Shown here in pieces: positions 1 through 16,815 of a DNA stretch of 59,628 nucleotides. The stretch covers positions 1 through 59,628 of the forward strand of contig CAJWHT010000009.1 of assembly GCA_913041495.1 (NCBI GenBank), written 5' to 3'. The position numbers were made by a program, and so were the translations under genes. Source of the DNA: an uncultured Desulfobacteraceae bacterium. Lineage in GTDB: Bacteria; Desulfobacterota; Desulfobacteria; Desulfobacterales; Desulfobacteraceae. The notes below the pieces were generated by a model. It was given only the letters and a program-made list of their open reading frames with translations, was not told the DNA's origin and did no database searches. Each line of letters begins with the position of its first letter. The first letter of the stretch is position 1.

Positions 1-2612
1 CCATTGATCCGGGATCATGCCTTAAGCTGATCAAGGACAAATGCGGCACCTGTGCCAGGGTTTGTCCCACGGGGGCCATCAACTATGAAGATACGCAATC
101 CACATCCACTATTCATGTGGGCTCCGTGATCATGGCACCGGGATTCAAACCCTATGATCCCGGCGGACTGGACAATTACCAGTACAAGGCGTTTTCCAAC
201 GTTATCACCAGTATCGAATATGAACGCCTGCTTTCTGCCGGCGGTCCCACCGGCGGCCATATCGAATGCGCCACCGAGGATAAGAAGGTGAAACGGGCAC
301 CGAAGAAAATCGCCTGGCTCCAGTGCGTGGGCTCCAGGGATCAGAACAAGTGCGGCAACGGGTATTGCTCTTCGGTGTGCTGCATGTATGCGGTGAAAGA
401 GGCCGTGATGACGGCAGACCATATTGAAGGGGACTTCGAGGCTTCCATCTTCTTCATGGACATGCGGACCTACGGCAAGGATTTCGAGAAATACTACGAA
501 CGGGCCAAGGCTGAAGGGGTCCGGTTTGTGAGATCACGTATCCATACCATCACGGAAAACGAGGACAAGAGCCTGTCCTGCACCTATGTTACCGAGGACG
601 GCCGGAACGTTGTCGAGGACTTTGACATGGTGGTGCTGTCCGTGGGCATGGAGACGCCCAAAGATCTGGCTGAAGAGGTGGCCAAAATGGGCATCACCCT
701 GAACGCCGACAACTTTGTGGAAACCCGTCTGTTCGAACCGGTATCCACCAGCCGGGACGGCATCTTCGTTTGCGGGGCGCTTGCCGAGCCCAAAGATATT
801 CCCATGTCGGTCATGGAAGCTTCTGCAGCGGCCTGTGATGCCGGGGCAGCCCTGGCAAAAGCCAGGGGAACGCTCACCAAAACCAAGACTTACCCCGAAG
901 AAAAACGGATGGGTCTGGAAGACCCGAGGATCGGTGTTTTTGTCTGCAACTGCGGCACCAATATCGGCGGCGTGGTGGATGTGCCCGGTGTGGCCGAATA
1001 TGCAAGACGTCTTCCCCATGTGGCCTACGTGGAAGAAAATATGTTCACCTGTGCCCAGGATACCCAGGATAAACTGCGGGAGATCGTGGCCGAAAAAGGG
1101 TTGAACCGCATCGTTATCGCGGCCTGTACCCCCAGGACCCATGAGCCCCTGTTCCAGGAAACGCTCAGGGACGCAGGCCTGAACAAGTATCTGGTGGAAA
1201 TGGCCAATATCCGTAACCAGTGTTCCTGGGTCCATGCCAAGGAACCTGAGCTTGCCACGGAGAAATCCAAGGACCTGGTGAGAATTGCGGTGGCCAAAGC
1301 CGCCCTGATGAATCCCCTGGATCAGCCCGAGGTGGGTATTGTTCAAAAAGGCCTTGTCATAGGCGGCGGGGTTGCCGGTATGACGGCGGCCCTGGGACTT
1401 GCCGACCAGGGATTCCATACCTATCTCATTGAAAAAGGTGAGACTTTGGGCGGCTATGCCCTCAGCCTGGACCATGCCTGGACCCATGAGCCCATCGCCG
1501 AAAACGTTAAGGCCATGGTGGCGCGTGTGCAGGCCCACGAGGGAATCGAAGTGCTCACCGGTGCCGAAGTGGCTGAGACCAAAGGGTTTGTGGGCAACTT
1601 CAATACCATAGTTAAAGCGGGCGGACTTAATGGCGATGCCAGAGATACGGTTCTGGATCACGGCGCCGTCATCATTGCCACCGGGGCCAAAGCAGGGATT
1701 CCGGACGAGTATCTTTACGGTAAAGATCCCCGGGTCTTTAACCACGTGGATTTGGACCCGGCCATGCGTGACAATCCCGACATGGTGAAAAAGGCGGCTT
1801 CCGCCGTCTTCATCCAGTGTGTGGGCTCCAGGGAAGAGGGCCGCCCCTACTGCTCCAAGGTCTGCTGCACCCATTCCATCAAAAAGGCCATCCAGTTCAA
1901 GGAGATCAACCCGGACATGGACGTCTACGTCCTCTACCGGGATATCCGGACTTACGGCCGCAGGGAGTCCTTGTACCGGCAGGCCCGGGACAAGGGCGTT
2001 ATCTTCATCCGTTACAGCCCGTCTGAGAAACCCGTTGTCACTGCCAAAGAGAACTGCCTGGACATACAGATAAAGGAACGGATTCTCGGCATGGACATTC
2101 ATGTGGAAGCCGACTTTTTGGTACTGGCCTCCGCCATCGTGGCCGAAGGCAACGAAGACCTGGCACAGAAGTTCAAGCTCACCCTCAACGATGACAAGTT
2201 CTTCATGGAAGCCCACGCCAAACTGCGGCCGGTGGATTTTGCCACCGACGGTGTCTTTCTCTGCGGTACGGCCCACTATCCCAAGCCGGTTGAAGAATGC
2301 ATCGCCCAGGCCAAGGCTGCTGCTTCCAGAGCGATTCGTGTGCTGTCCAGGGACAGCGTCACCGTGGACGGGGTGGTTTCCGATGTGGATTCAGCCCGCT
2401 GCCGCGGATGCGGTGCCTGCGAGGCTGCCTGTCCCTTCGGTGCCATTGAAACCTATGTCACCGATGCGGGCGTGACGCTGGCCCGGGTCCAGCAGGCCCT
2501 GTGCAAGGGGTGCTCCGCCTGTACGGTTGCCTGTCCCACAGGCGCCGCAGGAGTTTCCCATTACAACAATGAAGTGCTGGCCATGGTTGAGGCCGCTTTA
2601 GAAGAAGGATAA
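1..2612 (+). CDS. hdrA: HdrA-HdrA fusion protein (5' truncated by window edge)
   Basis: The reading frame is open from base 3 at the left edge, so the true start lies outside the window. The visible ~869 residues begin inside a ferredoxin motif (CGTCARVCP) and the C-terminal flavin part of one HdrA module (CVGSRD, then GYCSSVCC, then DGIFVCGAL). A complete second HdrA module follows: an N-terminal Cys-containing region starting [12 protein letters not shown], a Rossmann FAD motif [10 protein letters not shown], a second [15 protein letters not shown] block, and two C-terminal [4Fe-4S] motifs ([12 protein letters not shown] and [12 protein letters not shown]). HdrA proteins hold the FAD at which electrons are bifurcated or confurcated in soluble heterodisulfide-reductase-like complexes. 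The gene is followed 4 bases later by mvhD. The second module closely resembles the separate HdrA at 4609, which shows the fusion/fission relationship. The physiological partner is not visible, and no HdrB or HdrC gene is in the window. Confidence 0.9.
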
Positions 2613-2616
2613 CACT

Positions 2617-3033
2617 ATGAGTTTCGATCCCCAGATCATTACCTTTGCCTGCAACTGGTGCTCTTACTCCGCCGCCGACCTGGCCGGGGTCAGCCGCTTC
2701 CAGTATCCGCCCAACATGCGGATCATCCGGGTCATGTGTTCGGGGGGCATTACCCCCAATTACATCCTCAAAGCCTTTGAAAAGGGGGCGGACGGTGTCC
2801 TGGTCTCCGGCTGACACATGGGAGACTGCCATTACCTGGACGGTAATGTAAAAGCCACCAAGACCTTTGAGATGACAAAGGAACTTCTGGACCTGCTCGG
2901 CATCGATACGAACCGGGTGCGGCTGGAATGGATCTCGTCGGCCGAGGGCAACAAGTTTGCCGATGTGGCCAATGAATTTACGGAAAAGATTAAAGCGCTG
3001 GGGCCTGCCAATATCCGCTCCAACGCCGCGTAG
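2617..3033 (+). CDS. mvhD: MvhD-like electron-transfer subunit, selenoprotein (one Sec)
   Basis: This 138-residue MvhD/FlpD family protein (PF02662 type) carries a [2Fe-2S] cluster and passes electrons between HdrA and a partner oxidoreductase. ATG 2617 follows a GAAGGA ribosome site inside the end of the upstream hdrA. An in-frame TGA at 2812-2814 would be residue 66. It interrupts the strongly conserved motif, reading [15 protein letters not shown] where the family has Cys, and the same frame continues coding to 3033 with family-typical sequence. The N-terminal [13 protein letters not shown] motif and MCSGGI are intact. A 7-bp hairpin begins 15 bases after the TGA. Reading through as selenocysteine explains everything; a truncated 65-residue protein would lack the cluster ligands. 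The gene lies between two hdrA genes and is evidently cotranscribed with them. Confidence 0.92.
2830..2848 (+). promoter_or_regulatory. SECIS-like hairpin of mvhD (first copy)
   Basis: A perfect 7-bp stem (CATTACC with GGTAATG) closes a 5-base loop TGGAC and starts 15 bases after the in-frame TGA at 2812-2814. Bacterial SECIS elements are short stem-loops at this distance, recognised by SelB. The same stem at the same distance is present in the second mvhD, although amino-acid conservation explains part of the similarity. Confidence 0.65.
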
Positions 3034-3059
3034 CGAATACATAACGAGGAGAAAGCACC

Positions 3060-4598
3060 GTGACTGACAACATACTTGTCCTTGGCGGCGGTATTGCCGG
3101 TATCCAGTCTTCACTGGACCTGGCGGAAATGGGATTCAAGGTCCACCTGGTGGAAAAGCTGCCGTCCATCGGCGGCAAAATGGCCCAGTTGGACAAAACC
3201 TTTCCCACCAACGACTGCGCCATCTGAATCCTCTCGCCGAAGATGCTGGATGTCGGTCGACATCCCAATATAGAGTTGATGGCCTACAGTGAACTTAAGG
3301 GGCTTGAAGGTGACGCCGGGAATTTTACTGCCAAGGTGTTGAAAAAGGCAAGGTACGTGGATGCGGACAAGTGCACGGGCTGCGGTGCCTGTGTCGAGGT
3401 CTGCCCTACGCCCGTGTCTGACCTTTATAACGAGGGGCATGCGGACCGCAAGGCCGTTTACTCCTGGTTTGCCCAGGGCATCCCCTCCACCCATGCCATA
3501 GATACGGACCACTGCCGGGTGTTTCAGGGCAAACGGTGCGGGATCTGCGCTAAAAAGTGCGAGGCCGATGCCATTAATTTTGATCAGACCGAGGAAACGG
3601 TGGAACTGAATGTGGGCGCTGTGGTCGTGGCCACGGGGTACGACGTGTTTGATCCTGGAAAGATCCCCGAATACCGGTATAAGACCCTTGACAATGTGAT
3701 CACCGCCATGGAGTTTGAACGGTTTCTCTCCGCCTCTGGCCCCACCGAAGGCCACCTGTACCGGCCCTCGGACCGGAAACTGAAGGCGGAAAAGGCCGAT
3801 CTTGAAAAGACCCTGGCCAAGTCCGCAAAGGCCCTGGCCCGGTTTGAAAAGAAGCACGGCATGACGTCCAAGAATTTTTTGGTGGCGTTGACCACCAATA
3901 CCCTGGAACTCACCGATGACCTGGCCAAGGATGCCGAAAAATGGGCGGCCAAGGCCAAAGATCACAAATCAAAAGATGACCGCCTGACGGCACTGGCCCA
4001 AAAGGCGGACGCCGTCACCACGGCCAAGAAAATCGCCTTTATCCAGTGTGTGGGCTCCCGGGACCTGCGGTTTTACCCCTTTTGCTCCGGGTATTGCTGT
4101 ATGCATGCCATCAAGGAGGCCATCATCGCCCATGAGCATGACAACGATACCGAGTCCAGTATTTTCGGTATGGATATCCGTGCGGTGGGCAAGGGCTTTG
4201 AAGAGTATAAGATCCGCGGGGGCAACGCCTCCCAGATTACCTACAAACGTTCCAGGGTGGCGGAGATCGTCCGGGGGGAAAATGAAAACCCCGTGCTGAT
4301 CTACGAGGATACGGCCCAGCAGAAAATCGTCAAGGAGCCCTTTGACCTGGTGGTGCTGTCCACGGCCTGCGCGCCTGTGAAGGGGACGCAAGACATTGCG
4401 GATACCCTGGGTGTTGATCTGGACAAGTTCGGTTTCTTCAAGACCGATGCGGCCAATCCCCTGGATACTACCAGGGACGGGATCTTTGTCTGCGGCTGTG
4501 CCCACAGCCCCATGGATATTCCTGAGTCGGTGGCCCAGGCCAGTTCTGCGGCGGCCCGGGCGGTCCAGGCCATCATGAAATCCAAAAAGGCATCCTAG
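3060..4598 (+). CDS. hdrA: HdrA, selenocysteine-containing, with coiled-coil-like insertion
   Basis: The flavin subunit is 512 residues long from GTG 3060, which follows GAGGAG with 8-base spacing; no ATG lies upstream in frame. The N-terminal FAD motif [18 protein letters not shown] is followed by [16 protein letters not shown], where the in-frame TGA at 3225-3227 (residue 56) occupies the position of a conserved Cys in HdrA. Selenocysteine at HdrA is established in some methanogens. Downstream are [12 protein letters not shown] and CGICAKKCE iron-sulfur motifs, then [17 protein letters not shown] and [10 protein letters not shown]. An extra Lys/Ala/Asp-rich segment (about residues 235-320) separates GPTEGHLY from the CVGSRD block, where the neighbouring fusion protein has only about ten residues. 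It lacks the C-terminal module supplied separately by the next gene. It is probably the Sec counterpart of the first half of the fused HdrA upstream. Confidence 0.9.
3248..3265 (+). promoter_or_regulatory. SECIS-like hairpin of hdrA
   Basis: A perfect 7-bp stem (GGATGTC with GACATCC) closes a GGTC tetraloop and lies 20 bases after the TGA at 3225-3227. The compact GC-containing stem with a G-rich loop fits bacterial SECIS geometry. It was identified by eye, without folding calculations. Confidence 0.6.
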
Positions 4599-4608
4599 GG
4601 GGAATGAC

Positions 4609-6315
4609 ATGATGAGCACAAAAGGCATGAAAAAAGAAAGTATGAAACTGGTCGAAGAACCCCGCATCGGTGTCTTTGTCTGTGACTGCGGCTCCAACAT
4701 CGCGGGCCACCTGGACTGCGCGGATGTGGCGGAATATGCCAAAACCCTTCCCCACGTGGTGTACGTCAAGGAAAACCTCTACACCTGTTCCGAATCCGGG
4801 ATCGTGGAAATCAAGAACGCCATCACCCAGGAGAACTTGAACAGGGTTCTGGTGGCCTCCTGTTCGCCCAGGACCCACCATCCCTTGTTTTCAAGTTCCT
4901 GTGCCGAGGCCGGTCTCAACCCCTACCTCTTTGAGATGGTGAATATCCGGGACCAGTGTTCCTGGGTTCACATGGGCAAACGGGAAGATGCCACACAAAA
5001 GGCCAAGCACCTGGTGAAGATGGGGGTGGCCAAGGCTGCCGGCCTGGAACCCAGAGAAGAGATCGAGTCTTCACTGATCCGCAAGATCATGGTGGTGGGC
5101 GGCGGCATTGCAGGGCTCTCCGCGGCCCAGGCGCTTTCCGATATGGATCTGGACGTGATCCTGGTGGAAAAGACAGATCATTTCGGCGGCCTGCTGCAGT
5201 CTTTGGGTACCCTGGAGACAGGAGAAACCGCCGAGGATTTTCTGGGGCGCGTGGTTGCGGATGTGCAACGCCGTTCAAACGTTACCGCTTATACAGGCGC
5301 CCAGGTAAAATCCACCGGTGGCTACATCGGCAACTATGAGGTGACCATCGACACCCCGGAAGGTGAGGTCACGGACAAGGTCGGTGCCATGGTTGTTGCC
5401 ACAGGCGCCGTGCCCCTGATTCCCGAAGGAATCTTCGGCTACGGGAACAAAGGCGTTGTCTCCCTGATGGAGCTGGAACAGCACCTGAAAAATGATACCC
5501 TGGAAAAAGCGGGGTTCTCAGGGCAGCGGATGGTCTTCATCCAGTGCGCGGGTACCAGGAACGCCAAACGGGAATACTGTTCGCGCATCTGCTGCATGAC
5601 CGCCGTGAAAAATGCCATGACGGTGAAGAAAAAGTATCCCCTGGCAGATGTCCGCGTGCTCTACCGGGACATGCAGATGTACGGGGCGCAAAAAGAGCAG
5701 ATGCTCTGGGATGCCAGGGGAATGGGCATCCGTTTCGATGTCTATGATCCGGAAAATCCCCCCAACGTGGAAGCGGGCAAGGTCTCCTACTTTCGAACCG
5801 TCACCGGTGATGATGTGTCGCTTGAAACGGATCTCACCGTGCTTTCCACCCCGCTGACCGCACGGCAGGGCACAGGCGAACTGGCCAATATGCTGCGGGT
5901 CCCCACGGACCAGAACGGTTTCTTTCTGGAGGCCCATGCCAAGCTGCGGCCCCTGGACTTTGCCGCCGACGGCATCTTTGTGGCAGGGGCGGGCAGATAT
6001 CCTGCCACGGCCACGGAGAGCCGGACCCAGGGCATCGGCGTGGCATCCCGTGTGGCTGCCATCCTCTTCAAGGACAAGCTGGTGAAAAGCGCCATTGTGG
6101 CAGGCATTGATCCTGCCTCCTGTGTGGGCTGCCTGTCCTGCCTGCCCATGTGTCCCTACGAGGCCATCACCTATAATAAGGATGCGCGGGTCTGCCAGAT
6201 CAACGAGATTCTCTGCAAGGGCTGCGGCAATTGTGCGGCTACCTGTCCCTCGCATTCGGCGCTGCTGGCAGGGTTTAAGCCTGAGCAACTGCTGGCACAG
6301 ATCGGGGCGGCGTGA
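4609..6315 (+). CDS. hdrA: HdrA second-module protein (FAD plus C-terminal polyferredoxin)
   Basis: This 568-residue protein corresponds to the second half of the fused HdrA at the left edge. It opens with [15 protein letters not shown] and CSPRTHHPLF, has the FAD motif VVGGGIAGLSAAQALSDM around residue 162, the Cys block CAGTRNAKREYCSRICC, and ends with two [4Fe-4S] motifs, CVGCLSCLPMCP (about residue 505) and CKGCGNCAATCP (about 536). It has no in-frame TGA. It starts 10 bases after the selenocysteine HdrA and precedes the second mvhD, so the two HdrA halves are probably produced together and assemble. ATG 4609 follows AGGGGGAA; a second Met one codon later is equally possible. QmoB is a related alternative, but the separate MvhD and FdhA argue for an Hdr-Fdh complex. 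Confidence 0.88.
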   Translation: MMSTKGMKKESMKLVEEPRIGVFVCDCGSNIAGHLDCADVAEYAKTLPHVVYVKENLYTCSESGIVEIKNAITQENLNRVLVASCSPRTHHPLFSSSCAEAGLNPYLFEMVNIRDQCSWVHMGKREDATQKAKHLVKMGVAKAAGLEPREEIESSLIRKIMVVGGGIAGLSAAQALSDMDLDVILVEKTDHFGGLLQSLGTLETGETAEDFLGRVVADVQRRSNVTAYTGAQVKSTGGYIGNYEVTIDTPEGEVTDKVGAMVVATGAVPLIPEGIFGYGNKGVVSLMELEQHLKNDTLEKAGFSGQRMVFIQCAGTRNAKREYCSRICCMTAVKNAMTVKKKYPLADVRVLYRDMQMYGAQKEQMLWDARGMGIRFDVYDPENPPNVEAGKVSYFRTVTGDDVSLETDLTVLSTPLTARQGTGELANMLRVPTDQNGFFLEAHAKLRPLDFAADGIFVAGAGRYPATATESRTQGIGVASRVAAILFKDKLVKSAIVAGIDPASCVGCLSCLPMCPYEAITYNKDARVCQINEILCKGCGNCAATCPSHSALLAGFKPEQLLAQIGAA

Positions 6316-6372
6316 GCCCCGGCCCAAAACGGAAATATCCTGAGGAAAACGAAATATCCAAGGAAAAGATAA

Positions 6373-6831
6373 ATGAGTGATAAACATTTCGAACCCAATA
6401 TCATTTGCTTCCTGTGTACCTGGTGAGCGTACGCCGCTGCTGACCTGGCTGGGGTCAGTCGTATGCAGTATCCTGCAAATATCCGGATTATCCGGGTGAT
6501 GTGTTCGGGCTCCGTCTCGCCCCACCACGTGCTCCGTGCCTTTCAACAGGGGGTTGACGGGGTCTTCGTGGGCGGCTGACACTTAAGCGAATGCAATTAC
6601 CTGTATGGTAATTATTCCACTGAAAAAAGAGTCAACGTCCTCTCCCAGGTGCTGGACTTCACCGGAATTGAAAAAGAGCGTCTCAGGGCGCGCTGGGTCT
6701 CTTCGGCCGAAGCCCCTGAGTTCGTGGAAGAGGTGAATGCCTTTATCGACACCCTCAAAGAACTCGGCCCTTCCCCGCTTAAGGCCGCAGTTGAGGCAAA
6801 AAAGGAAGAGCAGAAGGAGGCTCCGGCATGA
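6373..6831 (+). CDS. mvhD: MvhD-like electron-transfer subunit with two selenocysteines
   Basis: This is the second MvhD family protein, 152 residues, ATG 6373 after AAGGA. The frame contains two TGA codons. The first, 6424-6426 (residue 18), replaces the second Cys of the CxWC motif, giving [13 protein letters not shown] against [13 protein letters not shown] in the first copy. The second, 6577-6579 (residue 69), is at the same site as the single Sec of the first copy ([14 protein letters not shown]). Between and after them the sequence aligns with the first MvhD without any gap ([17 protein letters not shown]). Both TGA are followed by hairpins. The C-terminus is a short charged Lys/Glu tail not seen in copy one. 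The stop codon overlaps the start of the next gene (ATGA). A pseudogene is unlikely, because both TGA fall exactly on Cys-ligand positions and nothing else is broken. Confidence 0.9.
6440..6458 (+). promoter_or_regulatory. SECIS-like hairpin for first Sec of second mvhD
   Basis: A 6-bp perfect stem (CTGACC with GGTCAG) closes a 7-base loop and starts 13 bases after the TGA at 6424-6426. The equivalent Cys-encoding region of the first mvhD can form a shorter version, so protein conservation contributes and the assignment is tentative. Confidence 0.45.
6595..6613 (+). promoter_or_regulatory. SECIS-like hairpin for second Sec of second mvhD
   Basis: A perfect 7-bp stem (AATTACC with GGTAATT) closes the 5-base loop TGTAT and starts 15 bases after the TGA at 6577-6579. 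Spacing and stem core (ATTACC/GGTAAT) are the same as in the first mvhD at 2830-2848, with a changed loop. Confidence 0.65.
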
Positions 6832-7625
6832 TCGAGACCATAAAACAACATGTGGCGGGCCTTCTGACAGAAAAGAAAATTGCAGGCTTTTTAGGCCTCA
6901 TTGAAAAGAACGGCCATGTGGCCCCCCACCTGTTCAAGGACGGGGAAAGCCTTGCGGGTTTCACCCTGGGGGACAGAAAAACCGCCGGGGATGCCAGATA
7001 TCCTTTAAACAAGACCCTTGTCACCCTGTCCCGGGCCTATCCTGAAGAAACTTTCGGGGTGCTGGTGCGCGGCTGTGATGAGCGCGGCCTTTACGGGCTG
7101 TTCCGTTTGAATCAGCTCACAGAAGACCGTGTCATTCCGGTGGGCTTTTCCTGTCCGGCAGAACTTTCCGAGGCCTGCGAGTGCAGAAAACCGTACCCTG
7201 ACAGTCTTGTGGCCGGAGAAAAGACCGAAAGCTCCCAATTGAAAAAAGTGGCGGAGATGGACGGCAAAGACCTGGCCCGGCGTTTCGATTTCTGGACGGC
7301 CCAGTTCGTTAAATGCGTGAAGTGCTATGGCTGCCGCGATGTCTGCCCCATGTGCTTTTGCAAAGAGTGCAGCCTGGAGTGCGAAGACCTGGTGGCCAAG
7401 GGGGATCTGCCCGTGGAAGTGCCGGTGTTTCATCTGACCCGGGCCATGCACATGGCCGACCGTTGCGTGGACTGCGGGCTGTGTGACGAAGCCTGTCCTT
7501 CGGATATCCCCCTGCGGTTGCTCTATAAGAAGACCGCCCAGATCATGGATACGGATTACGGATTTACATCCGGGCTCAACAAAAACGAACGCTCCCCCCT
7601 GAGCCAGATGGGACCGGCCAAGTAA
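6828..7625 (+). CDS. FrhB/FdhB-like iron-sulfur protein of the Hdr-formate dehydrogenase operon
   Basis: A 265-residue protein whose start ATG overlaps the mvhD stop. The N-terminal ~150 residues resemble the N-terminal region of the coenzyme F420 hydrogenase/dehydrogenase beta-subunit family (VRGCDERGLYGL is typical). Then come two Cys clusters, CVKCYGCRDVCPMCFCKEC around residue 163 and CVDCGLCDEACP around residue 213, suited to [4Fe-4S] centres. No membrane segment or signal peptide is visible. Its position directly before fdhA and after mvhD suggests that it links the formate dehydrogenase to the HdrA/MvhD module. Whether it binds a flavin or a deazaflavin cannot be judged from sequence; this lineage is not known for F420-dependent formate oxidation, so a ferredoxin- or NAD-linked role is an open alternative. 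Confidence 0.75.
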   Translation: MIETIKQHVAGLLTEKKIAGFLGLIEKNGHVAPHLFKDGESLAGFTLGDRKTAGDARYPLNKTLVTLSRAYPEETFGVLVRGCDERGLYGLFRLNQLTEDRVIPVGFSCPAELSEACECRKPYPDSLVAGEKTESSQLKKVAEMDGKDLARRFDFWTAQFVKCVKCYGCRDVCPMCFCKECSLECEDLVAKGDLPVEVPVFHLTRAMHMADRCVDCGLCDEACPSDIPLRLLYKKTAQIMDTDYGFTSGLNKNERSPLSQMGPAK

Positions 7626-7637
7626 TAAGGAATGATC

Positions 7638-9677
7638 ATGGAGTACAAGACGACACTGACCACCTGCACCTACTGCGGCTGCGGGTGCAACTTTTATCTT
7701 GAGACCCTTGACGGGAAGCTGACCAATACCATTCCCTGCAAGACCAGCCCGGTGAACGAGGGCAAACTCTGCATCAAGGGATGGAACGTCCACCAATTCG
7801 TCCAGAACGACCGCCGCCTTAAAAAACCCCTGCTGCGCAAGGGCGGGGAGCTGGTTGAGGTGGAATGGGAGGAAGCGCTTGCCTATACCGCGGACCGCCT
7901 GAAAGCGGTTACAGCGGAAAAAGGCGGGGATGCCGTGGGCTTTTTGGCCTCTGCCAAGGTGACCAATGAGGAGAACTATCTGCTTCAAAAGTTTGCCCGG
8001 GCCGCCATCGGCACCAACAACGTCGATCATTGCGCCCGATTGTGACATTCCTCCACTGTGGCAGGTCTTGCCGCAGCGTTCGGAAGTGGGGCCATGACCA
8101 ACGGGGTGGCCGAGCTTGAAAATACGGACACCATTTTTATTATCGGTTCCAATACGGCAACAGCCCATCCCCTGGTGGCCACCCGGATTTTCCGGGCCCT
8201 GGAAAAGGGGGCCAAACTGGTGGTGGCCGATCCTAGGAAAAACCAGATTGCCGAGTTTGCCGATCTTTATCTGCAGCACAAGCCCGGCAGCGACGTGACC
8301 CTGCTCAACGGGATGATGAAGGTCATTCTGGACCAAGGGCTCCAGGACCAGGCCTTTATCGACGCCAATACCGAGGAATTCGACGGGTTCAAGGCGCTTA
8401 TCGATGGGGTGGACCTGGACGCGTGTGCCGCCGCCACCGGGTTGACCGTGGACGGCATTGAACAGGCCGCCGCGCTTTACGCCAAGGCCGGCACCGCCTC
8501 TATTGTTTACTGCATGGGGATCACCCAGCATACCAACGGGGTGGATAATGTGAAATCCCTGGCCAACCTGTCCATGGTCACCGGCAATATCGGCCGGGAA
8601 AGCACAGGGGTAAATCCCCTGCGCGGCCAGAACAACGTCCAGGGCGCCTGTGATATGGGGGGGCTGCCCAATGTGCTCACCGGTTATCAGCCTGTTACCC
8701 TGGGAGCTGCCAGCAAGAAATTCGCAGATGCCTGGGGGGTGGATGAACTGCCCACGCAGATTGGCCTCACCATCCCGGAGATGCTCTCCGGTATCGAAGA
8801 GGAAAAGGTACACGCCCTTTGGGTCATGGGGGAAAATCCCGTGGTATCTGATCCCGACGCCGACCATGTGGTGAAAGCCCTGGAAAAGGTGGATCTGCTC
8901 ATCGTTCAGGATATTTTCCTGACCCCGACGGCCCGGCTGGCGGATGTGGTGCTGCCCGGCTGTTCCTTTGCGGAAAAGGACGGCACCTTCGTCAATACCG
9001 AGCGCAGGATTACCCGGGTCCGTAAAGCGGTGGAACCCGTGGGCGAATCCAAAGCAGACTGGGAAATCATCAGGGATGTTTCCAACGCCTTTGGGTTTGA
9101 GATGGCTTACGACTCACCTGAGGAGATCTTCACGGAAATCGCGGAGCTCACCCCCTCCTATGGTGGTGTCTCCTACGGCCGCCTTGAAGGGGACGGCATC
9201 CAGTGGCCCTGTCCGACCCCCGAACATCCCGGTACCCCCTTCCTTCATAAGGACGGCCGGTTTACCCGGGGCAAAGGCCTTTTCCATGCCATTGAATACA
9301 AGGGCCCTGCCGAGGTGGTTGACGCGGAATACCCCCTCTGGATGACCACGGGCCGTGTCTACGCCCACTATCACACCGGTACCATGACCCGGAACTCCGT
9401 GGCCCTGGACCGGGAGATTCCTGAAGGCTTCCTGGAAATCCATCCGGAAGATGCGGCTGCCATCGGCGTCTGTGACGGACACCGGGTGCGCCTGGCCTCC
9501 CGCCGGGGGGAAATAGAAACCCGGGTGAGCATCACGGAGCGGGTGGAAAAAGGCGTGGTCTTCATGCCATTCCACTTTGAGGAAGCAAATGTGAATAAAC
9601 TCACCAACCCGTCCTTTGATCCCATTGCCAAGATACCCGAACTCAAGGTTTGCGCCGTGGCGGTTGAAAAAATTTAA
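7638..9677 (+). CDS. fdhA: Formate dehydrogenase catalytic subunit FdhA, selenoprotein
   Basis: Molybdenum/tungsten bis-pterin formate dehydrogenase, 679 residues, cytoplasmic type (no Tat signal). The N-terminus has the [4Fe-4S] ligands CTYCGCGC (residues 10-17) and a later Cys before IKG. The in-frame TGA at 8043-8045 (residue 136) sits in HCARL-U-HSSTVAGLA, the classic active-site selenocysteine motif. The molybdopterin-binding blocks and the C-terminal dinucleotide-binding domain follow (for example GRVYAHYHTGTMTRNS). ATG 7638 is preferred over the in-frame ATG 7632 because the AAGG ribosome site ends at 7630. It oxidises formate or reduces CO2, and with HdrA and MvhD upstream it probably feeds a flavin-based bifurcating complex. 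It would also supply formate for the formate-THF ligase at 41356. It is the last gene before a strong terminator. Confidence 0.96.
8058..8074 (+). promoter_or_regulatory. SECIS element of fdhA
   Basis: A stem of six pairs with one G.U (GTGGCA with TGCCGC) closes the loop GGTCT, 12 bases after the TGA at 8043-8045. The core GCAGGTCT is the same as that in the experimentally known E. coli fdhF SECIS, so this is the best supported of the five. Confidence 0.75.
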
Positions 9678-9720
9678 TCGTTGTATGCTGTTGCCGCTGA
9701 TGTGCTGCGGCCGATGAAAA

Positions 9721-9759
9721 AAGCCCGTCGCTTTTCCAAAGCGGCGGGCTTTACTTTTT
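9721..9759 (+). terminator. Intrinsic terminator after fdhA, possibly bidirectional
   Basis: A 14-bp stem with one G.T pair (AAGCCCGTCGCTTT with AAAGCGGCGGGCTT) and a TCC loop is followed by TACTTTTTTT. An A-run precedes the stem, so it may also end transcription of the convergent HDOD gene, although that gene ends 240 bases away. Confidence 0.85.
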
Positions 9760-10002
9760 TTGGCGGTGGACATCGTTCCCTGGGTTTTTGACTGGGGTGC
9801 ATCTGCCTGAACCGCAAGGCGGAAATCGACGCTGTTTCCTTCATGAACCGCAGGTTCGCTGACTTGAATGAGGCCAATGCCGGAAAAATCAGCGGGCATG
9901 TGAATAAAAATGCCGCGCATCTTGAGGGGGAGATGGCCAAATCCTTCCAGGACGTCACCCGGGAAGCGGGGCTTGCCGTATCCCGGACGCGACAGCCTGA
10001 AA
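9760..10002. other. Gene-free stretch between convergent genes
   Basis: No protein family, RNA or clear repeat was recognised. A short + frame from 9843 (MNRRFADLNEANAGKIS) and the opposite frame are open for part of the stretch, but neither has a ribosome site and the + frame runs on into the antisense of the HDOD gene. It may be a decayed gene fragment. Confidence 0.4.
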
Positions 10003-11298
10003 TCAGAAGGCGTTGCCGGATGCGTCTATCACCGCTTTGGCCTCTTCTTCCATGCGGGTCAGCGTGTCCGCCTCGATGTCGAGGAGATCCAGGATCTGGT
10101 CAATACCCTGTTCCAGGGCCGGATCCGTTCCTTCATCCGTGGTATTGATATCGAACCCGGGGAATCCGTATCCGATACGCCTGGCCAGAAAATCGGCCAG
10201 ATGAATCACCAGGATTTCGGTTTGGGTCCCCGGCGGATATTCGTTCCAGTGGTGGATCTGGGCCAGCCGGACAAATGTGGACGGAAATTTCCACCGTTTG
10301 AGCAGGCTCGCACCGAAGGTGGTGTGGATTTCATGGATGGCTTTGAGAAGTTTGGGATCATCAAATGACGCCGTCTGGGAGAGATCGGCAATGGACTTGA
10401 GCAAAAGGACATTGCCAAGGTCATAGGTGATGCCCATAAGAAACACCGTGTCACTGTTGGGAAGCGATATTTTTTCCGCAATGAGCTTGCCGCAGCAGGC
10501 CACGGCAAACGAGTGGGTCCAATGTTCTTTGAGAATTTTTTTTAATGATGCATTGTCCGAGTGAAACAGCAGTTTGCTGGACACGGCGGATACGGCGGCA
10601 TGGGTGGCTTCAAGCCCGAGGCGGACAATGGCGGCACGAAGATCGGTGACCGCTTCCCTGCCGCGGTACAGGGGGGAGTTGGCGATTTTCACCAGCTTGC
10701 CGCTGATGACAGGGTCCTTTTCAACCACCTTCACCATATCATCAATGGACGGGTTTTCCATATTCAGGACATCCTGGATCTGGGTGACAATCTCGGGAAG
10801 CACCGGCAACCTGATGCTGCCCTTGTTAAATTTTTCAATGATCTTTCCCACCACTTTGGGATGTATTTGGGTTTCCCCGTGTTTTACACGACCTGGAAGC
10901 CGCAGGCCCAGACTTTTGAGTTTTTTCTGGAGACGGGCGGGGCTGACCGGTTTGGTCATATAATCGTCGCAGCCAAGATCGATACATTCCTGGACCACGG
11001 ATTTGTTCATCCGGGCGCTGGTCATGATGATTTTAAGGGGCCGGGTCTTGACTTGGGCCTGGGCCATCTGGGCCTTTTGCAGGCTCCGGATCAGGCGGAG
11101 CACCTGGCGTCCGTCCATGCCGGGCATGGATATATCCAGGGTCAGTAAATCAAAGGGGTGGGGTGAGGCCATGGCATCACGGAATAACTGGATGGCGGTT
11201 TGGCCGTCACCGGTGCTTACCACCTCGCCAAAGTCTGCCATTAAATCGGAAAGAATTTTTCGCGAGATGGGTTCGTCATCGACAATCAATGTCTTCAT
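10003..11298 (-). CDS. Response regulator with C-terminal HDOD domain
   Basis: 431 residues from ATG 11298, which has AGGAA upstream; a longer frame to 11460 adds a basic, non-family stretch and is not used. Residues 1-120 are a CheY-like receiver (LIVDDE at 4-9, phosphorylatable Asp55 in LTLDISMPG, Thr/Ser in IIMTSA, Lys in YMTKP). From about residue 150 there is an HDOD domain (LPVLPEIVTQIQDVL, then VEKDPVISGKLVKIANSPLY, LRAAIVRLGLEAT), related to HD phosphohydrolases but without their metal ligands. HDOD regulators act by protein contacts in signal transduction, often in motility or c-di-GMP networks. No cognate kinase is adjacent; the nearest is the orphan-looking kinase at 17062. Confidence 0.88.
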   Translation of the reverse strand: MKTLIVDDEPISRKILSDLMADFGEVVSTGDGQTAIQLFRDAMASPHPFDLLTLDISMPGMDGRQVLRLIRSLQKAQMAQAQVKTRPLKIIMTSARMNKSVVQECIDLGCDDYMTKPVSPARLQKKLKSLGLRLPGRVKHGETQIHPKVVGKIIEKFNKGSIRLPVLPEIVTQIQDVLNMENPSIDDMVKVVEKDPVISGKLVKIANSPLYRGREAVTDLRAAIVRLGLEATHAAVSAVSSKLLFHSDNASLKKILKEHWTHSFAVACCGKLIAEKISLPNSDTVFLMGITYDLGNVLLLKSIADLSQTASFDDPKLLKAIHEIHTTFGASLLKRWKFPSTFVRLAQIHHWNEYPPGTQTEILVIHLADFLARRIGYGFPGFDINTTDEGTDPALEQGIDQILDLLDIEADTLTRMEEEAKAVIDASGNAF

Positions 11299-11494
11299 GG
11301 ATGTTCCTGATTCTTGTTCTTTTGAGCCTTTCCGGTATTCGGAAGAAAACGGGCATAGTTTATCATAAAAACAGACGGGTGTCCAAATCGGCCTGGATGT
11401 CTTTGGTTTTTTTATGCGTTTGGGTTTCAATGGGCCGGGTGTGATACCCTTGGCCGACATCGGAATGCCGCTGTGATTTTCTCATTTGCCCCTG

Positions 11495-11524
11495 TTGTTT
11501 TTTCAAAGGGTTATATGGTATATT
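11495..11524 (+). promoter_or_regulatory. Possible sigma70-type promoter before the three-gene unit
   Basis: TTGTTT and TATATT separated by 18 bases, about 130 bases upstream of ATG 11658. It lies in the 359-base divergent gap 11299-11657, which otherwise holds no gene that I can see. Judged by eye only. Confidence 0.35.
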
Positions 11525-11657
11525 TCCATGTTTTAACGCGACACGGATGATAAAAGGTTACGCAATATATACCGCCTGCTTCACGGCCATTTGCGGGTAA
11601 CACCGCCGGTACTTGCAGCAAATGCCGCAGGATGGAAAACTAGGAGAATAATCCCAC

Positions 11658-13532
11658 ATGGGACGGTTGACTGAATTTGAACTGACCACAAGAAAAGTAA
11701 ACGACAGCCCGCTGACCTACGAGGCGCTGATCCCCTCGGAATGTAATTTTTTCCAGGATGTCCGCCGGTATCAGAGCATCGGACCCAACCTGGAGATCCG
11801 GGTGATCCGGGTGGATGGAAGAATCGAACTTGACCCGGATATGGAACCTTTGTCCATCAACAAACTCAACGGGCCGGAGCGCAAGGCCCTGGTGGACTAT
11901 CTCACGGTGCGGGTGGCCAGGGGAGACAACATCGGATATGCCTGGGCCTTTTTCAGGTCATCGGATAAAAAACGTCCCGTTGTCGCCATTGGGGGCAACG
12001 TGGTTCACAACGACACAGCCGTGGGCAAGGAGCGGGTGAGAAAGCTTTTGGCCCTGCTGCAAAAGGAAAAGGGCGCAAGCCAGATGAAACGCAAATGGCT
12101 GCCCAGGATTGCCGTGGGGATATGTATTGCGGCTGCGGTGTTTGCCGGTATGAAATACGGTCACCTGGCAAAACGATTTCCATTTAAGCGTGTCACCGGC
12201 GGGACATCAGGACCTGAGATGACCTTTTACGGATCCGTATTCCCGCAGGTGTACGACTGGTACCGGAATGGGGAGCCTGAACAAAAAGAGGTGGCCAAGT
12301 CCCTGCTCAAGCCCGAGTATATCACAGGGATTCGCCAGACCATGTCCGAAGCATTTTACCAGCCGGATGAGGATGACGACATGAGCCAGGGCAACCGCCT
12401 GGTTCTCTTTGTCTATTTTAATTACAATACGGAAGTGGCAGATCTCATGAGGGCCCACCGGGATATCCTGGCAGGCACCGAGTTCATGCGGCTGGCAAGA
12501 ATATACGCCACACGGCAGTCCGGATATGCCTCAAATATCTTCTACTTCAAGGTGGGGGATCTGAATATCAAGCATGCCGAGATCTCCAAGTATATGAAGC
12601 AGAACATGATCACTTACCGGGACTTTAAGAAGATCCGGGATGTAAACGCCTTTTCCGAACTGATGGAACGTGACAGCGTCAGCTACAAGATGAAGGGGTT
12701 TTTGGAAAATGTCTACACCTTCACTCCGCTTCGGATCGACACGCCTGTCAAAAACAGGTCCTGGTACCTGCTGACCCGGCAGGACGGTGCTGCACTGGAT
12801 TTTGCCGCCTTTTTCCATGAAGAAAACGCCACCCTGGTCCCCAAGCGTATCGGGAACCTGCTGCTGGGCAGCAAGGCGTTGCCCAAGGATATGGTCTGGT
12901 ATGCCCTGGACGATGCCCAGGCCGAGGGCCTGCGGCTTTCTGAAACCGCCCTTACCTACTTTTCCAGGGAAACGGGGCAGTCGCATAAGCTGTCGGTGAT
13001 CCGTGACCGGATAAAAACCCTTGGTCTGCGGCCGCTGAAAAAAGAGCAGATTGCCGTCACCGTCCACCGGGAACTTCTCATGGGGGACATGAAGGGGAAA
13101 TACGGTATCCAGACCAACGATCCCATCACCAGCCTGGTATTGTCCAACCTGATCACCAAATCTTCCTTTGAACGGGAGGCCAACGTCTCTTTAAAGCGTG
13201 ATCCCATCCAGTTTAATACCACTTTGGTGCAGCTGTCCAAGGATGACAGCTTCTCTGTCCAGACCGTGACCATCACCCCGGGCACCACCAATATCATACG
13301 TTTGTTTGAGCCCCTGGACAGTTTCAGGGCGCGTTTCAGCGACGGCACAAAAGCCGTGTTTGAAAAGGCAAGCGTTAATCTGTTCAATCCCTTTACTTTT
13401 ATGATTTCCAGAGATAGCATAACCTTTAGTTTCCGTCATGATATCAGGGATATGGAAATCGAAGCCGGCGACATGCTGCTTAAAATCGTAAAGGCCAGCG
13501 ACGGAAACTATCAGATTGTTGAGGCCATGTAA
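11658..13532 (+). CDS. Single-pass membrane protein of unknown function (three-gene unit, first gene)
   Basis: 624 residues with ATG 11658 after TAGGAG. I do not recognise a family. Residues 1-145 look soluble and charged; one hydrophobic segment (about 150-166, IAVGICIAAAVFAG, preceded by KRKWLPR) predicts an N-in, C-out topology. The ~450-residue remainder would be periplasmic. It is rich in Asp/Glu/Lys with no Cys pattern, and contains no lipobox and no TPR or Ig signature that I can call. It is followed 45 bases later by a degenerate P-loop protein and then by an actin-like ATPase, in the same direction, so the three are probably one operon. A role as membrane anchor or envelope effector for those two is inference from position only. 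Confidence 0.75.
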   Translation: MGRLTEFELTTRKVNDSPLTYEALIPSECNFFQDVRRYQSIGPNLEIRVIRVDGRIELDPDMEPLSINKLNGPERKALVDYLTVRVARGDNIGYAWAFFRSSDKKRPVVAIGGNVVHNDTAVGKERVRKLLALLQKEKGASQMKRKWLPRIAVGICIAAAVFAGMKYGHLAKRFPFKRVTGGTSGPEMTFYGSVFPQVYDWYRNGEPEQKEVAKSLLKPEYITGIRQTMSEAFYQPDEDDDMSQGNRLVLFVYFNYNTEVADLMRAHRDILAGTEFMRLARIYATRQSGYASNIFYFKVGDLNIKHAEISKYMKQNMITYRDFKKIRDVNAFSELMERDSVSYKMKGFLENVYTFTPLRIDTPVKNRSWYLLTRQDGAALDFAAFFHEENATLVPKRIGNLLLGSKALPKDMVWYALDDAQAEGLRLSETALTYFSRETGQSHKLSVIRDRIKTLGLRPLKKEQIAVTVHRELLMGDMKGKYGIQTNDPITSLVLSNLITKSSFEREANVSLKRDPIQFNTTLVQLSKDDSFSVQTVTITPGTTNIIRLFEPLDSFRARFSDGTKAVFEKASVNLFNPFTFMISRDSITFSFRHDIRDMEIEAGDMLLKIVKASDGNYQIVEAM

Positions 13533-13577
13533 GGCGAAGCTTCAACCTAAAAGCGTATCAAGGAGTACCACCAGCAT

Positions 13578-15080
13578 ATGTATGACAACCGAGACCGCCT
13601 CCAGCAGATTCAACGGGAAATAGAAGAAGTAATCCAGCAGCTGGAGACCATACCGGCAGAAAAAAAAGACAGGGCCAGGGATGTAATCGACCGGTGCCGG
13701 GCTTGCCTGAAAACCATTCCGGCCACGGATACCCCTGTGTATATCCATATCACCGGCACCGATAAATCATTTAAAACCAGTTACCTGCTGGACCTGTTCG
13801 ACAATGAATCCTTGCGGGACATGTTCTCTGTCAAACAACGGAACACCTCGGAGAATACCGCGGTTCCCTGTCTGGTGGAACCTGTGTCCTGGACCGATGA
13901 GGTGGTGGTCAGCCAGGTGTCCATTTCCACCGGGAACGTGATCCGTGACCAGTTGACCCAGGAGCAGTTCAACCGGTTGTACGATTTGTCTTCGGGCGCG
14001 GAACCCGATGATTACCTGATCCGGGTGGCCATTCCCGAAGACCAGACCGCCATGACGCTTCCGGTTATCGAGTACCCCGGGATCAAGGAAGGGGCGGATG
14101 CCATCGACAGCCAGAAGGAACGCCATAAAAAATTCCAGACCAATATGCTGGACTGCCTGGTGCGGTATCCGGGGATTCTGGTCACCTGTTTTCAGCATAA
14201 AATCGCCATACCGCCGGGGCATCCCCTGGACGCCATCCTGAAAAAATATGAGGCCGTACTGGAGACCAACTACCACTACCATAAGCTGCCGCTGATCCTC
14301 TCCTTGCAGGGGGACAGCGCCATCGCCAGCTACTGCGGCAACACCAACGTGGAGCAGGATCTGGAAAGTGACTTTAAAAGCTATAATGCCTTTGATTCCA
14401 TTGTGCAACTGGTGAACCCCTGCAACGATGAATACCCGGTCAGTTTCATCTCCCCCGGCCCCCATGTGGACTCCTGGATCAGGAACCTGTCCAACTACAA
14501 GGACCTTCGGGAGATCAAAGACCAGATAAAACTGGACGGCGGGATTTCCTGGTCCCGGCAGATGCTGGCCCAGGTATGCACCACCTCCCACATCCAGGAG
14601 GCCCTGGACAACATGTTCCTCAAACCCTGGGTGACCGAAGCCACAGTGCTGCACGCCGAAGCCCTGGACGTCCTTCATACCCTGGAAAGTTATGATGAGA
14701 TGACTCAGATCAAAGAAAGGGTCAGGGAGGCCATTCTCAACGAGACCTACCAGAGCCTGCGCCAGTTTTTTGATGTGGAACTGGGGTACAGCCACAACGG
14801 GGAGATCAGGGATCACCGGGAGTTCTGGACCACGATCTTCATGCAGTACCTGGATCAGTTCCTGTTGGATACGGAACGAAGCCGCGCCATTGCAGGCGTC
14901 CTCTGGGACAATCTCCACCAGCGCCTGGATCCCGACAACAAGGGGTTTTTAAGCGCCAGGGAAGAAGATTTGCCCCATATTATCATGAACATGGCTGAGT
15001 TTTACGTGCCCAACACGCTTGTAAGGGGGGATTACACCCTTCTGGAAAGACGCCTTAAGGAGAAATCCCATGCTGTTTAA
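13578..15080 (+). CDS. Putative dynamin-like protein with degenerate P-loop (second gene of unit)
   Basis: 500 residues, ATG 13578, with AAGGAG 12 bases upstream. An N-terminal helix-rich segment (LQQIQREIEEVIQQLE) precedes HITGTDKSFKTSYLLDLF (residues 58-74), which has the shape of a Walker A loop after a hydrophobic beta strand, but the Gly before Lys-Thr is replaced by Phe. A switch-II-like element VIEYPGIKEG near residue 163 stands where GTPases have DTPG. Further hydrophobic strand-plus-motif segments (LPLILSLQGDS) follow, then a long helical C-terminal half. This layout resembles bacterial dynamin/GTPase families, but nucleotide binding may be lost. It overlaps the next gene by 11 bases. 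No membrane segment is visible. The function is unknown; assignment as GTPase-like is from motifs only. Confidence 0.7.
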   Translation: MYDNRDRLQQIQREIEEVIQQLETIPAEKKDRARDVIDRCRACLKTIPATDTPVYIHITGTDKSFKTSYLLDLFDNESLRDMFSVKQRNTSENTAVPCLVEPVSWTDEVVVSQVSISTGNVIRDQLTQEQFNRLYDLSSGAEPDDYLIRVAIPEDQTAMTLPVIEYPGIKEGADAIDSQKERHKKFQTNMLDCLVRYPGILVTCFQHKIAIPPGHPLDAILKKYEAVLETNYHYHKLPLILSLQGDSAIASYCGNTNVEQDLESDFKSYNAFDSIVQLVNPCNDEYPVSFISPGPHVDSWIRNLSNYKDLREIKDQIKLDGGISWSRQMLAQVCTTSHIQEALDNMFLKPWVTEATVLHAEALDVLHTLESYDEMTQIKERVREAILNETYQSLRQFFDVELGYSHNGEIRDHREFWTTIFMQYLDQFLLDTERSRAIAGVLWDNLHQRLDPDNKGFLSAREEDLPHIIMNMAEFYVPNTLVRGDYTLLERRLKEKSHAV

Positions 15081-16815
15081 GCTGTTTAAACGAAAAGAAA
15101 AGGAAGTGGACCAGTTCCAGCTGGAACTGGAAGATGACGGCAAGCTTTACTACGAAACCATTGCCGGCCGCACCCCCCGGGACACCAACAACCATGAAGA
15201 GTATATCCTGTTCGTGGATTTCGGCTCCTACAGGACCAGCGTGCTCTGCTGGCCCTGCAGTTTCGGCCGGGACAAGATCACAGACTCCTGGCAGTACGTG
15301 GTTCACGGGGACTCGGATGCCCAGGGCGGTTTTCCGTCGGCCTTCATCAATCCGCCTTCGGGGGATGAGCGGGATTTTGCCTTTGTGCCGGACATGGGGG
15401 AGAACCACGTCAGCTCCAGCCAGATCGTGAAAAGCGCCAAATACGTCTTTGCCAGCAAGTTCGCAGCTTACAAAGGGGATGTGCCCCAGTTCAAGCTTTA
15501 TATTAAAAAGATCCTTGAAGAAAGTTTCAGGTACATCACCGAGCCAAACACGGATCGTCCCTGGAACGGGCCGGCCATCCCCGTGATCACAGAGATCCGG
15601 GTAACGGTGCCGGATCTTTTTATCGAGAACCTGAGGAACGGCTACAAGGAAAATATTTATTCCGTGTGCATGGACCTGGCCTCTGACCGGAAGTGGAAAT
15701 GGCTCTTTCCTTCTGATTTAAGACATCTGAGAAAAACCTTTGTAAATATCTCGGCCGATGAAAGCGGTGCCTGTGAACTTTACTTTCTGAACCTGCTCAA
15801 GCTGATGCCCTTCTGGGAACTGGGCGGGGACAAGGACCGGCTGCCGGATCTCAAAGAGGTGGATTTCCTTTTTTCACAGGACCCCCAGCGCAACCCCAAT
15901 GCCAAGGATCTCAACTTTGTGGTCTGCCACATCGACATCGGGGGGCTGACCACGGATGTCAGCATCCTTTTGGCCAACACCTATCAGGATCCGGCCCTGG
16001 GCATCACCACGGCGCTCAAACGCAAGGAATCCTTTAGCGAAAGAAAGGCCGGAGAATATTTTGCCGATACCTTTGCCCAGGTCCGGATGCCGGATGAAAG
16101 CGGTCCCTGGTGGGACAACGACAGGTTTTTGGGCAAGGAGTTCTCACGCTTTCTTGAACTGCTCTGCGGCAAGCAGGCGGCCCTGCTCAACGAGTGGCGA
16201 AAGGAAAAAGAGTTGTCCGGGATTTATTTTCTGATCTCAGGCAGGCCCACCAAATCGGAGAAGGTCCGTGCCGCCATCAAAAGGCATATACTCAAGGAGT
16301 TCAACAAGAACGAGTTGATGCTGCTGCCGGAACACTGCCTGTTTATGGCGGAATACCGCCACGTGGGAAAAAACCAGGAGGGGGAACGCTACGCAAAGAA
16401 CATCGAGCATTTTGAAAAACTGATCACCCTTCTTGGAAATGTGTACACCCTCTATGACGGATACGAGATCTCATTTGAGGATCACAAATATTATATCTCC
16501 CTGGATACGGACGCCAGAACCACCACTCAGATGGAGGTGATACCGGGACGGATTTACAACATGGAAGAGTTTGAGAACTATAAGAAATCCGCCGTTCATA
16601 ACAACGTCAACCACCTGGCATTTACACGGTTCCCCGCCGGGGAGAACAGCACGCGATTCCTGACGGTGAAGACCATTGCCCGGCAAACCGCCTATCCGGT
16701 CATCAAGGTGGCCCAGAGCAACGACGGCCAGGCCTGGATTATGCCGTCCCTTGTGATCACCAACCTGGAGCAGAACGACCAGGCCTTTGATCTCTCCTGG
16801 GGGACCCTGATGTAA
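15070..16815 (+). CDS. Actin/Hsp70-like (ASKHA) ATPase of unknown function (third gene of unit)
   Basis: 581 residues; ATG 15070 follows AAGGAG and overlaps the preceding gene. The ASKHA signature is clear: phosphate-1 loop LFVDFGSYRTSVL (Asp50), phosphate-2 loop HIDIGGLTTDVS (about residues 287-298), and an adenosine-type segment LISGRPTKSEKVRAAI near residue 388. An ATP-dependent actin-like or chaperone-like fold is therefore likely. It lacks a recognisable Hsp70 substrate domain and is not MreB, FtsA or ParM by motif. Architecture together with the upstream P-loop protein recalls the SrfB/SrfC pairing (an ASKHA-like protein beside a GTPase-like protein), but I cannot establish homology. 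The gene is followed by a terminator-like hairpin, which makes it the end of the operon. Confidence 0.8.
   Translation: MLFKLFKRKEKEVDQFQLELEDDGKLYYETIAGRTPRDTNNHEEYILFVDFGSYRTSVLCWPCSFGRDKITDSWQYVVHGDSDAQGGFPSAFINPPSGDERDFAFVPDMGENHVSSSQIVKSAKYVFASKFAAYKGDVPQFKLYIKKILEESFRYITEPNTDRPWNGPAIPVITEIRVTVPDLFIENLRNGYKENIYSVCMDLASDRKWKWLFPSDLRHLRKTFVNISADESGACELYFLNLLKLMPFWELGGDKDRLPDLKEVDFLFSQDPQRNPNAKDLNFVVCHIDIGGLTTDVSILLANTYQDPALGITTALKRKESFSERKAGEYFADTFAQVRMPDESGPWWDNDRFLGKEFSRFLELLCGKQAALLNEWRKEKELSGIYFLISGRPTKSEKVRAAIKRHILKEFNKNELMLLPEHCLFMAEYRHVGKNQEGERYAKNIEHFEKLITLLGNVYTLYDGYEISFEDHKYYISLDTDARTTTQMEVIPGRIYNMEEFENYKKSAVHNNVNHLAFTRFPAGENSTRFLTVKTIARQTAYPVIKVAQSNDGQAWIMPSLVITNLEQNDQAFDLSWGTLM

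Follow-up and report, generated by a model that had tools for sequence, protein, structure and literature searches.

According to the available portions of PMC12350162, MvhD/ElpC carries a [2Fe-2S] cluster that links an electron donor to HdrA, and MvhD connects Fdh or Mvh with Hdr; between this cluster and the HdrA flavin lie 25 A, which electrons cross by a mechanism that the same source describes as unknown. In archaea, such a protein can be encoded with two selenocysteine (Sec) codons: the vhuD gene of M. maripaludis has two TGA codons (PMC9622424, legend to Fig. S5), and Table 1 of a 2026 review lists MvhD/VhuD with the motif CxxU and two Sec (PMC13188914). A first-pass annotation of the DNA considered here had taken no standard MvhD description to have both positions as Sec, a statement that these archaeal and family-level accounts, in the parts of them available, contradict. 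For a bacterial two-Sec MvhD, no printed account was found within the available portions of the open-access literature searched.

Here a bacterial flpD/mvhD gene with two in-frame TGA codons is characterized from patterns of sequence conservation, from predicted RNA and protein structure and from gene order. It is located within a stretch of 59,628 nucleotides from an uncultured Desulfobacteraceae bacterium (the whole of the DNA analysed, termed here the window), where its features are:

6373-6831, forward strand: flpD/mvhD gene with two Sec codons; 152 amino acids, U18 and U69, stop codon at 6829-6831
6424-6426, forward strand: UGA codon 18, within the motif CTWU
6427-6466, forward strand: SECIS-like hairpin 1, with an upper stem pairing 6439-6446 with 6452-6459 and a lower stem of 7 pairs
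6577-6579, forward strand: UGA codon 69, within the motif VGGUH
6595-6613, forward strand: SECIS-like hairpin 2, AAUUACC-UGUAU-GGUAAUU

The reading favored here, with good though not full confidence, is that this gene encodes an FlpD/MvhD [2Fe-2S] electron-relay subunit, predicted to acquire two Sec residues by ordinary bacterial SelB/SECIS decoding, with one hairpin per UGA, and to join a Sec-containing FdhA to HdrA-like flavoproteins. The family assignment agrees with that of the first-pass annotation (PF02662, 176.6 bits against a cut-off of 22.3, E = 2.3e-52, with the full profile spanned). Both TGA codons, as had also been proposed, stand where homologues have Cys: when U is read as C, columns 18 and 69 are invariant in a 46-row alignment, the rows of which were mostly picked by a motif already requiring Cys or Sec at both columns. 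At codon 18, CxWC indeed becomes CxWU (here CTWU), and Sec69 matches the single Sec of the paralogue upstream (2617-3033), which has Sec at the second position only. Read in the same way, the protein has Cys or Sec at 15, 18, 44, 69 and 74. The two-TGA motif with its exact spacing is found a single time in the window, and none of 100 shuffled sequences contains it. A third Sec at 6829 was considered and rejected: the TGA at 6829-6831 shares bases with the ATG that begins at 6828 and is read as the true stop.

The fold predicted for two-Sec FlpD (pLDDT 95.1) has as its closest PDB chains the MvhD subunits of 5odh and 5odc, and the model superimposes on 5odh_D, 5odc_D and 7bkb_F with an rmsd of 1.0-1.2; within it, residues 15, 44 and 69 lie at or just past the ends of strands 1-3, and residue 18 lies right before helix 1. 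Against the NCBIfam VhuD profile NF045873, the protein scores 146.1 bits, under the cut-off of 215, and thus it is not filed as VhuD, though it may still function like VhuD. At residue 47, which follows the CSG motif, 124 of 178 FlpD sequences have Arg, and 21 of 22 two-Sec sequences have Ser, Thr, Met or Gly.

Bacterial SECIS elements are hairpins that lie shortly 3' of a UGA and present a G in the apical loop. Each UGA of the two-Sec gene is shortly followed by such a hairpin with an apical-loop G, so that the two SECIS-like hairpins noticed earlier hold up: the one after codon 18 comprises 15 pairs and a five-base bulge (-21.2 kcal/mol, z = -2.48), while the one after codon 69 is smaller in folding energy (-7.9 kcal/mol, z = -1.87). 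A comparison of window positions 1-16000 with Rfam gave no match at the gathering threshold. Within the same genome, tRNA-Sec scores 74.6 bits against a cut-off of 47; the N-terminal part of SelB is over its curated cut-off, and the C-terminal part, alone below cut-off, is apparently on another contig.

Conservation of the two stems was assessed in fixed registers among FlpD genes classified by their residues at positions 18 and 69, in that order. The codon-69 stem (at least 6 of 7 pairs) is present in 14/14 Cys/Sec, 20/22 Sec/Sec, 1/99 Sec/Cys and 1/42 Cys/Cys genes--that is, in 34 of the 36 Sec69 genes versus 2 of the 141 Cys69 genes--and the codon-18 stem (at least 7 of 8 pairs) in 20/22 Sec/Sec, 5/99 Sec/Cys, 2/14 Cys/Sec and 0/42 Cys/Cys genes; the registers were taken from the window gene, which favors its own clade, and each is absent from 2 of the 22 two-Sec genes. 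The codons TAC, GGT and AAT occur together in 34 of 36 Sec69 genes versus 4 of 70 Cys69 genes having the same residues (Y76, G79 and N80), a contrast that, like those between Sec and Cys hairpins, is inflated by the relatedness of the genes. Synonymous recoding yields a mean z of -0.99 at site 69 of Sec69 genes versus -0.20 for Cys69 genes (P = 5e-5), with 22% reaching 0.05. At site 18, when all Sec18 genes are included and the register is left free, there is no signal (P = 0.09 for minimum free energy; recoding mean z = 0.12). Within the Sec/Sec subset, recoding gives a mean z of -1.71 at site 18 (10/22 genes at or below 0.05) and of -1.14 at site 69 (6/22), and for the window gene itself a z of -3.0 at site 18 (0/200) and a marginal -1.5 at site 69 (0.07). 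An alternative codon-18 hairpin, CTGGA-GTT-TCCAG, is found in 72 of the 99 Sec/Cys genes (L043 being among the Sec/Cys loci) and in none of the 78 other genes.

Searching homologues for TGA at both positions, as the first-pass annotation had suggested, returned 23 distinct two-TGA FlpD sequences, alongside 99 Sec/Cys, 42 Cys/Cys and 14 Cys/Sec sequences classified by motif; these counts are biased by the searches that gathered the loci. The window's genome has 12 FlpD domains, one with two TGA codons, five with one and six with none. Three other FlpD copies in this genome (L007, L008 and L010, on contigs C28, C18 and C69) have one TGA at 18 after CxY or CxF, and patterns based on CxW would miss copies of this kind. 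Within the genus, four of 19 genomes have a two-TGA FlpD (that of the window and three more), and a phylum-wide motif search matched 15 of 395 genomes, 13 of which were judged to have FlpD and span six family codes and 11 genus codes. The matches in G363 and G403 were judged not to be FlpD, and they also failed a later FlpD filter for distinct sequences. Scanning named genomes for the CxWU motif yielded at least 117 loci with at least 118 matches, at least 114 of them evaluable (excluded were a chance match, L115, a disrupted one, L150, and the truncated sequences L050 and L131); among the evaluable matches listed, the second position is Cys in at least 105 and Sec in at least 9. Together with the phylum search, these counts indicate that predicted Sec18 is common in bacterial FlpD, and that Sec18 and Sec69 jointly are uncommon yet recurrent. 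The closest named record among the matches listed is Desulfobacula sp. S2_67 (L046), with 91% identity to the two-Sec protein; given this and the presence of a QmoB-type protein (L009) in the genome, the host organism is probably a sulfate reducer close to Desulfobacula.

The two-Sec gene is embedded in a cluster that suggests its partners:

1-2612, forward strand: hdrA-like gene a, open from 117, below the NF040770 cut-off
2617-3033, forward strand: paralogous flpD whose single Sec occupies the second position; hairpin CAUUACC-UGGAC-GGUAAUG
3060-4598, forward strand: hdrA-like gene b, with one in-frame TGA (CAIU)
4609-6315, forward strand: hdrA-like gene c, without Sec, directly upstream of the two-Sec flpD
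6828-7625, forward strand: 265-amino-acid protein with a 4Fe-4S dicluster domain, between FlpD and FdhA
7632-9677, forward strand: fdhA, formate dehydrogenase alpha subunit, with one Sec; TIGR01591, 849.6 bits, cut-off 666.25

The HdrA assignments rest on NF040770 scores under the cut-off of that profile. Gene a is probably truncated where the contig begins; in relatives of the same genus, HdrA-like sequence reaches further upstream than it does in gene a of the window. The interval 2617-9677 holds five Sec codons in four genes over about 7 kb (one in the paralogous flpD, one in hdrA-like gene b, two in the two-Sec flpD and one in fdhA). Gene order was compared for 21 loci, 16 of which represent the main two-Sec clade described below (a subset of its members). 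Downstream of the two-Sec flpD, an Fe-S gene is found in 15 of these 16 loci and fdhA as well in 13; where fdhA was not seen, the DNA ends (L101 and L089) or none was found downstream (L209). The Cys/Sec flpD partner does not accompany every locus, none having been found in L208 or L212. A shorter order--hdrA-a, flpD, Fe-S gene, fdhA--occurs in L207 and L210, and in L089 up to its end.

This gene order suggests that formate electrons would pass from FdhA to the 265-amino-acid Fe-S protein, then to FlpD and then to HdrA, where they would be relayed on to the FAD of a bifurcating or confurcating HdrA. Sec69 would most likely take the place of one of the four cysteines holding the [2Fe-2S] cluster and tune its potential. 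Sec18 would replace a fifth cysteine beside the cluster, where second-shell tuning or service is more likely than ligation, as is suggested by other FlpD domains that lack this fifth cysteine.

Those domains are divergent FlpD domains from one genus (20 fetched, plus L009, L011 and L012; the N-terminus is readable in 22, and L235 is without one). In 20 of the 22, Cys 15, 44, 69 and 74 are kept and residue 18 is Asp or Ser: Asp in nine of nine domains of the QmoB type (an identity resting on a qmoC neighbor in one genome), and Ser in 11, namely nine of nine of a 323-residue Fe-S type and both readable ones of an 822-residue type; coming from one genus and being of three main kinds, they do not count as independent events. 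Residue 18 thus looks like the dispensable Cys of FlpD, and residue 69 is more likely than residue 18 to provide a selenium ligand, to judge from the retention of Cys 15, 44, 69 and 74 where Cys18 is lost. These four cysteines fit a four-Cys [2Fe-2S] site, a reading drawn from conservation within a single genus. In the domains L236 and L238 the pattern is reversed: Cys18 is present, and Cys is missing from both 15 and 44. These two may carry no cluster or a different one.

The pattern bears directly on the earlier suggestion that selenium at residue 18 substitutes for an iron-sulfur ligand, which it weakens. That residue 18 is itself a ligand of the [2Fe-2S] cluster, two of whose ligands would then be selenium, nevertheless has something to recommend it: position 18 is Cys or Sec across the motif set (a set selected for that property); it comes three residues after Cys15 and, in the model, immediately ahead of helix 1; and L236 and L238 have Cys18 in the absence of Cys at 15 and 44. 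Moreover, Asp and Ser are able to ligate iron, and so their occurrence in 20 of 22 divergent domains is not decisive against ligation by residue 18. Set against the retention of the other four cysteines in those same domains, this leaves the idea conceivable but rather unlikely. A further possibility, to be regarded as doubtful, is that residue 18 is a thiol/selenol redox station, which without being a ligand would help electrons move from the cluster to the HdrA flavin, and which is Cys or Sec in the stand-alone FlpD proteins compared here and Asp or Ser in QmoB-type domains and in two other fused kinds. The preferred reading retains Sec69 as the probable ligand and Sec18 as a second-shell residue.

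The history of the two-Sec state was explored with an FlpD tree of 121 rows, in which both Sec columns were masked and which, based on few columns, leaves 54 of 118 inner branches open; it contains no archaeal sequence, and the Sec/Sec gene L095 from Aminicenantes, being too short, was left out. Most of the predicted two-Sec sequences found form one FlpD clade of Thermodesulfobacteriota, with 20 of 23 Sec/Sec rows together (SH-aLRT 93), while the remaining three are placed among Sec/Cys genes, at two separate points. The Sec/Sec label requires three changes on the tree (a number also forced by the starred branches), and Sec18 alone requires three. Hence the two-Sec state has been acquired or lost on more than one occasion, gains and losses being indistinguishable. 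Likewise, the existence of two distinct codon-18 hairpins points to more than one origin of Sec18. The codon-18 register of the main clade recurs in the Sec/Sec genes of Syntrophobacteraceae and in L051 and L120, their Sec/Cys neighbors; given this same folding register, they may share the Sec18 of that clade.

Acquisition of the bacterial two-Sec gene from archaea would have a precedent in the transfer of an hdrA-frhD-frhG-frhA operon proposed, in the available portion of PMC1794560, between archaea and Deltaproteobacteria, and the archaeal vhuD likewise has two TGA codons (PMC9622424, in the part available). The main two-Sec clade, however, is joined by a bacterial Cys/Cys gene, L165 (SH-aLRT 90, in a tree built without archaeal sequences), and its gene cluster includes fdhA in 13 of 16 loci, and such an origin therefore appears improbable. 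Searches for archaeal VhuD homologues found none on viral contigs and, on plasmids, one Ilyobacter match and no archaeal VhuD.

That one or both TGA codons are true stops or assembly errors in a decaying pseudogene--a concern insofar as the source is a draft genome of 328 contigs--is highly improbable, inasmuch as both are retained in 23 distinct sequences, most of them with the hairpins, and in six family codes of the phylum sample and 4 of 19 genomes of the genus, the reading frame and remaining invariant residues are intact, SelB and tRNA-Sec are encoded in the same genome, and 20 of the 23 two-Sec rows of the tree group in one clade.

Compared with known systems, the window protein is nearest in fold to the MvhD subunits of solved complexes (51, 44 and 51% identity for the three chains; TM-score 0.82-0.87 by query length); the five alignments shown have Cys in both Sec columns, and the partners in those complexes are a hydrogenase, an F420-type Fdh or Elp. 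Among bacteria, MvhD1, 2, 3 and 5 of Desulfobacterium autotrophicum HRM2 are Sec-MvhD proteins like that of the window, and most hdrA/hdrL loci there have mvhD as a neighbor, some of them together with fdhA; the available text of that report (PMC2702500) does not give the number of Sec per protein. Archaeal VhuD resembles the window protein in belonging to the same Pfam family, in having two in-frame TGA codons (PMC9622424) and the motif CxxU (PMC13188914) and in being encoded with hdrA (PMC11097638), a likeness that, in the available parts of these sources, covers this motif and the number of Sec. It differs in that its operon includes hydrogenase subunits; the window protein, for its part, has its hairpins inside the gene and scores below the VhuD cut-off. 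Thus, while two-Sec VhuD is already known from archaea, what is described here is, on good support, a bacterial branch of a known protein, one that widens the range of two-Sec FlpD/MvhD beyond archaea to include a conserved clade of bacteria with a link to formate dehydrogenase. The natural series of Cys/Cys, Cys/Sec, Sec/Cys and Sec/Sec forms, several of which occur within one genome, would permit a direct test of what each position contributes to electron transfer to HdrA.
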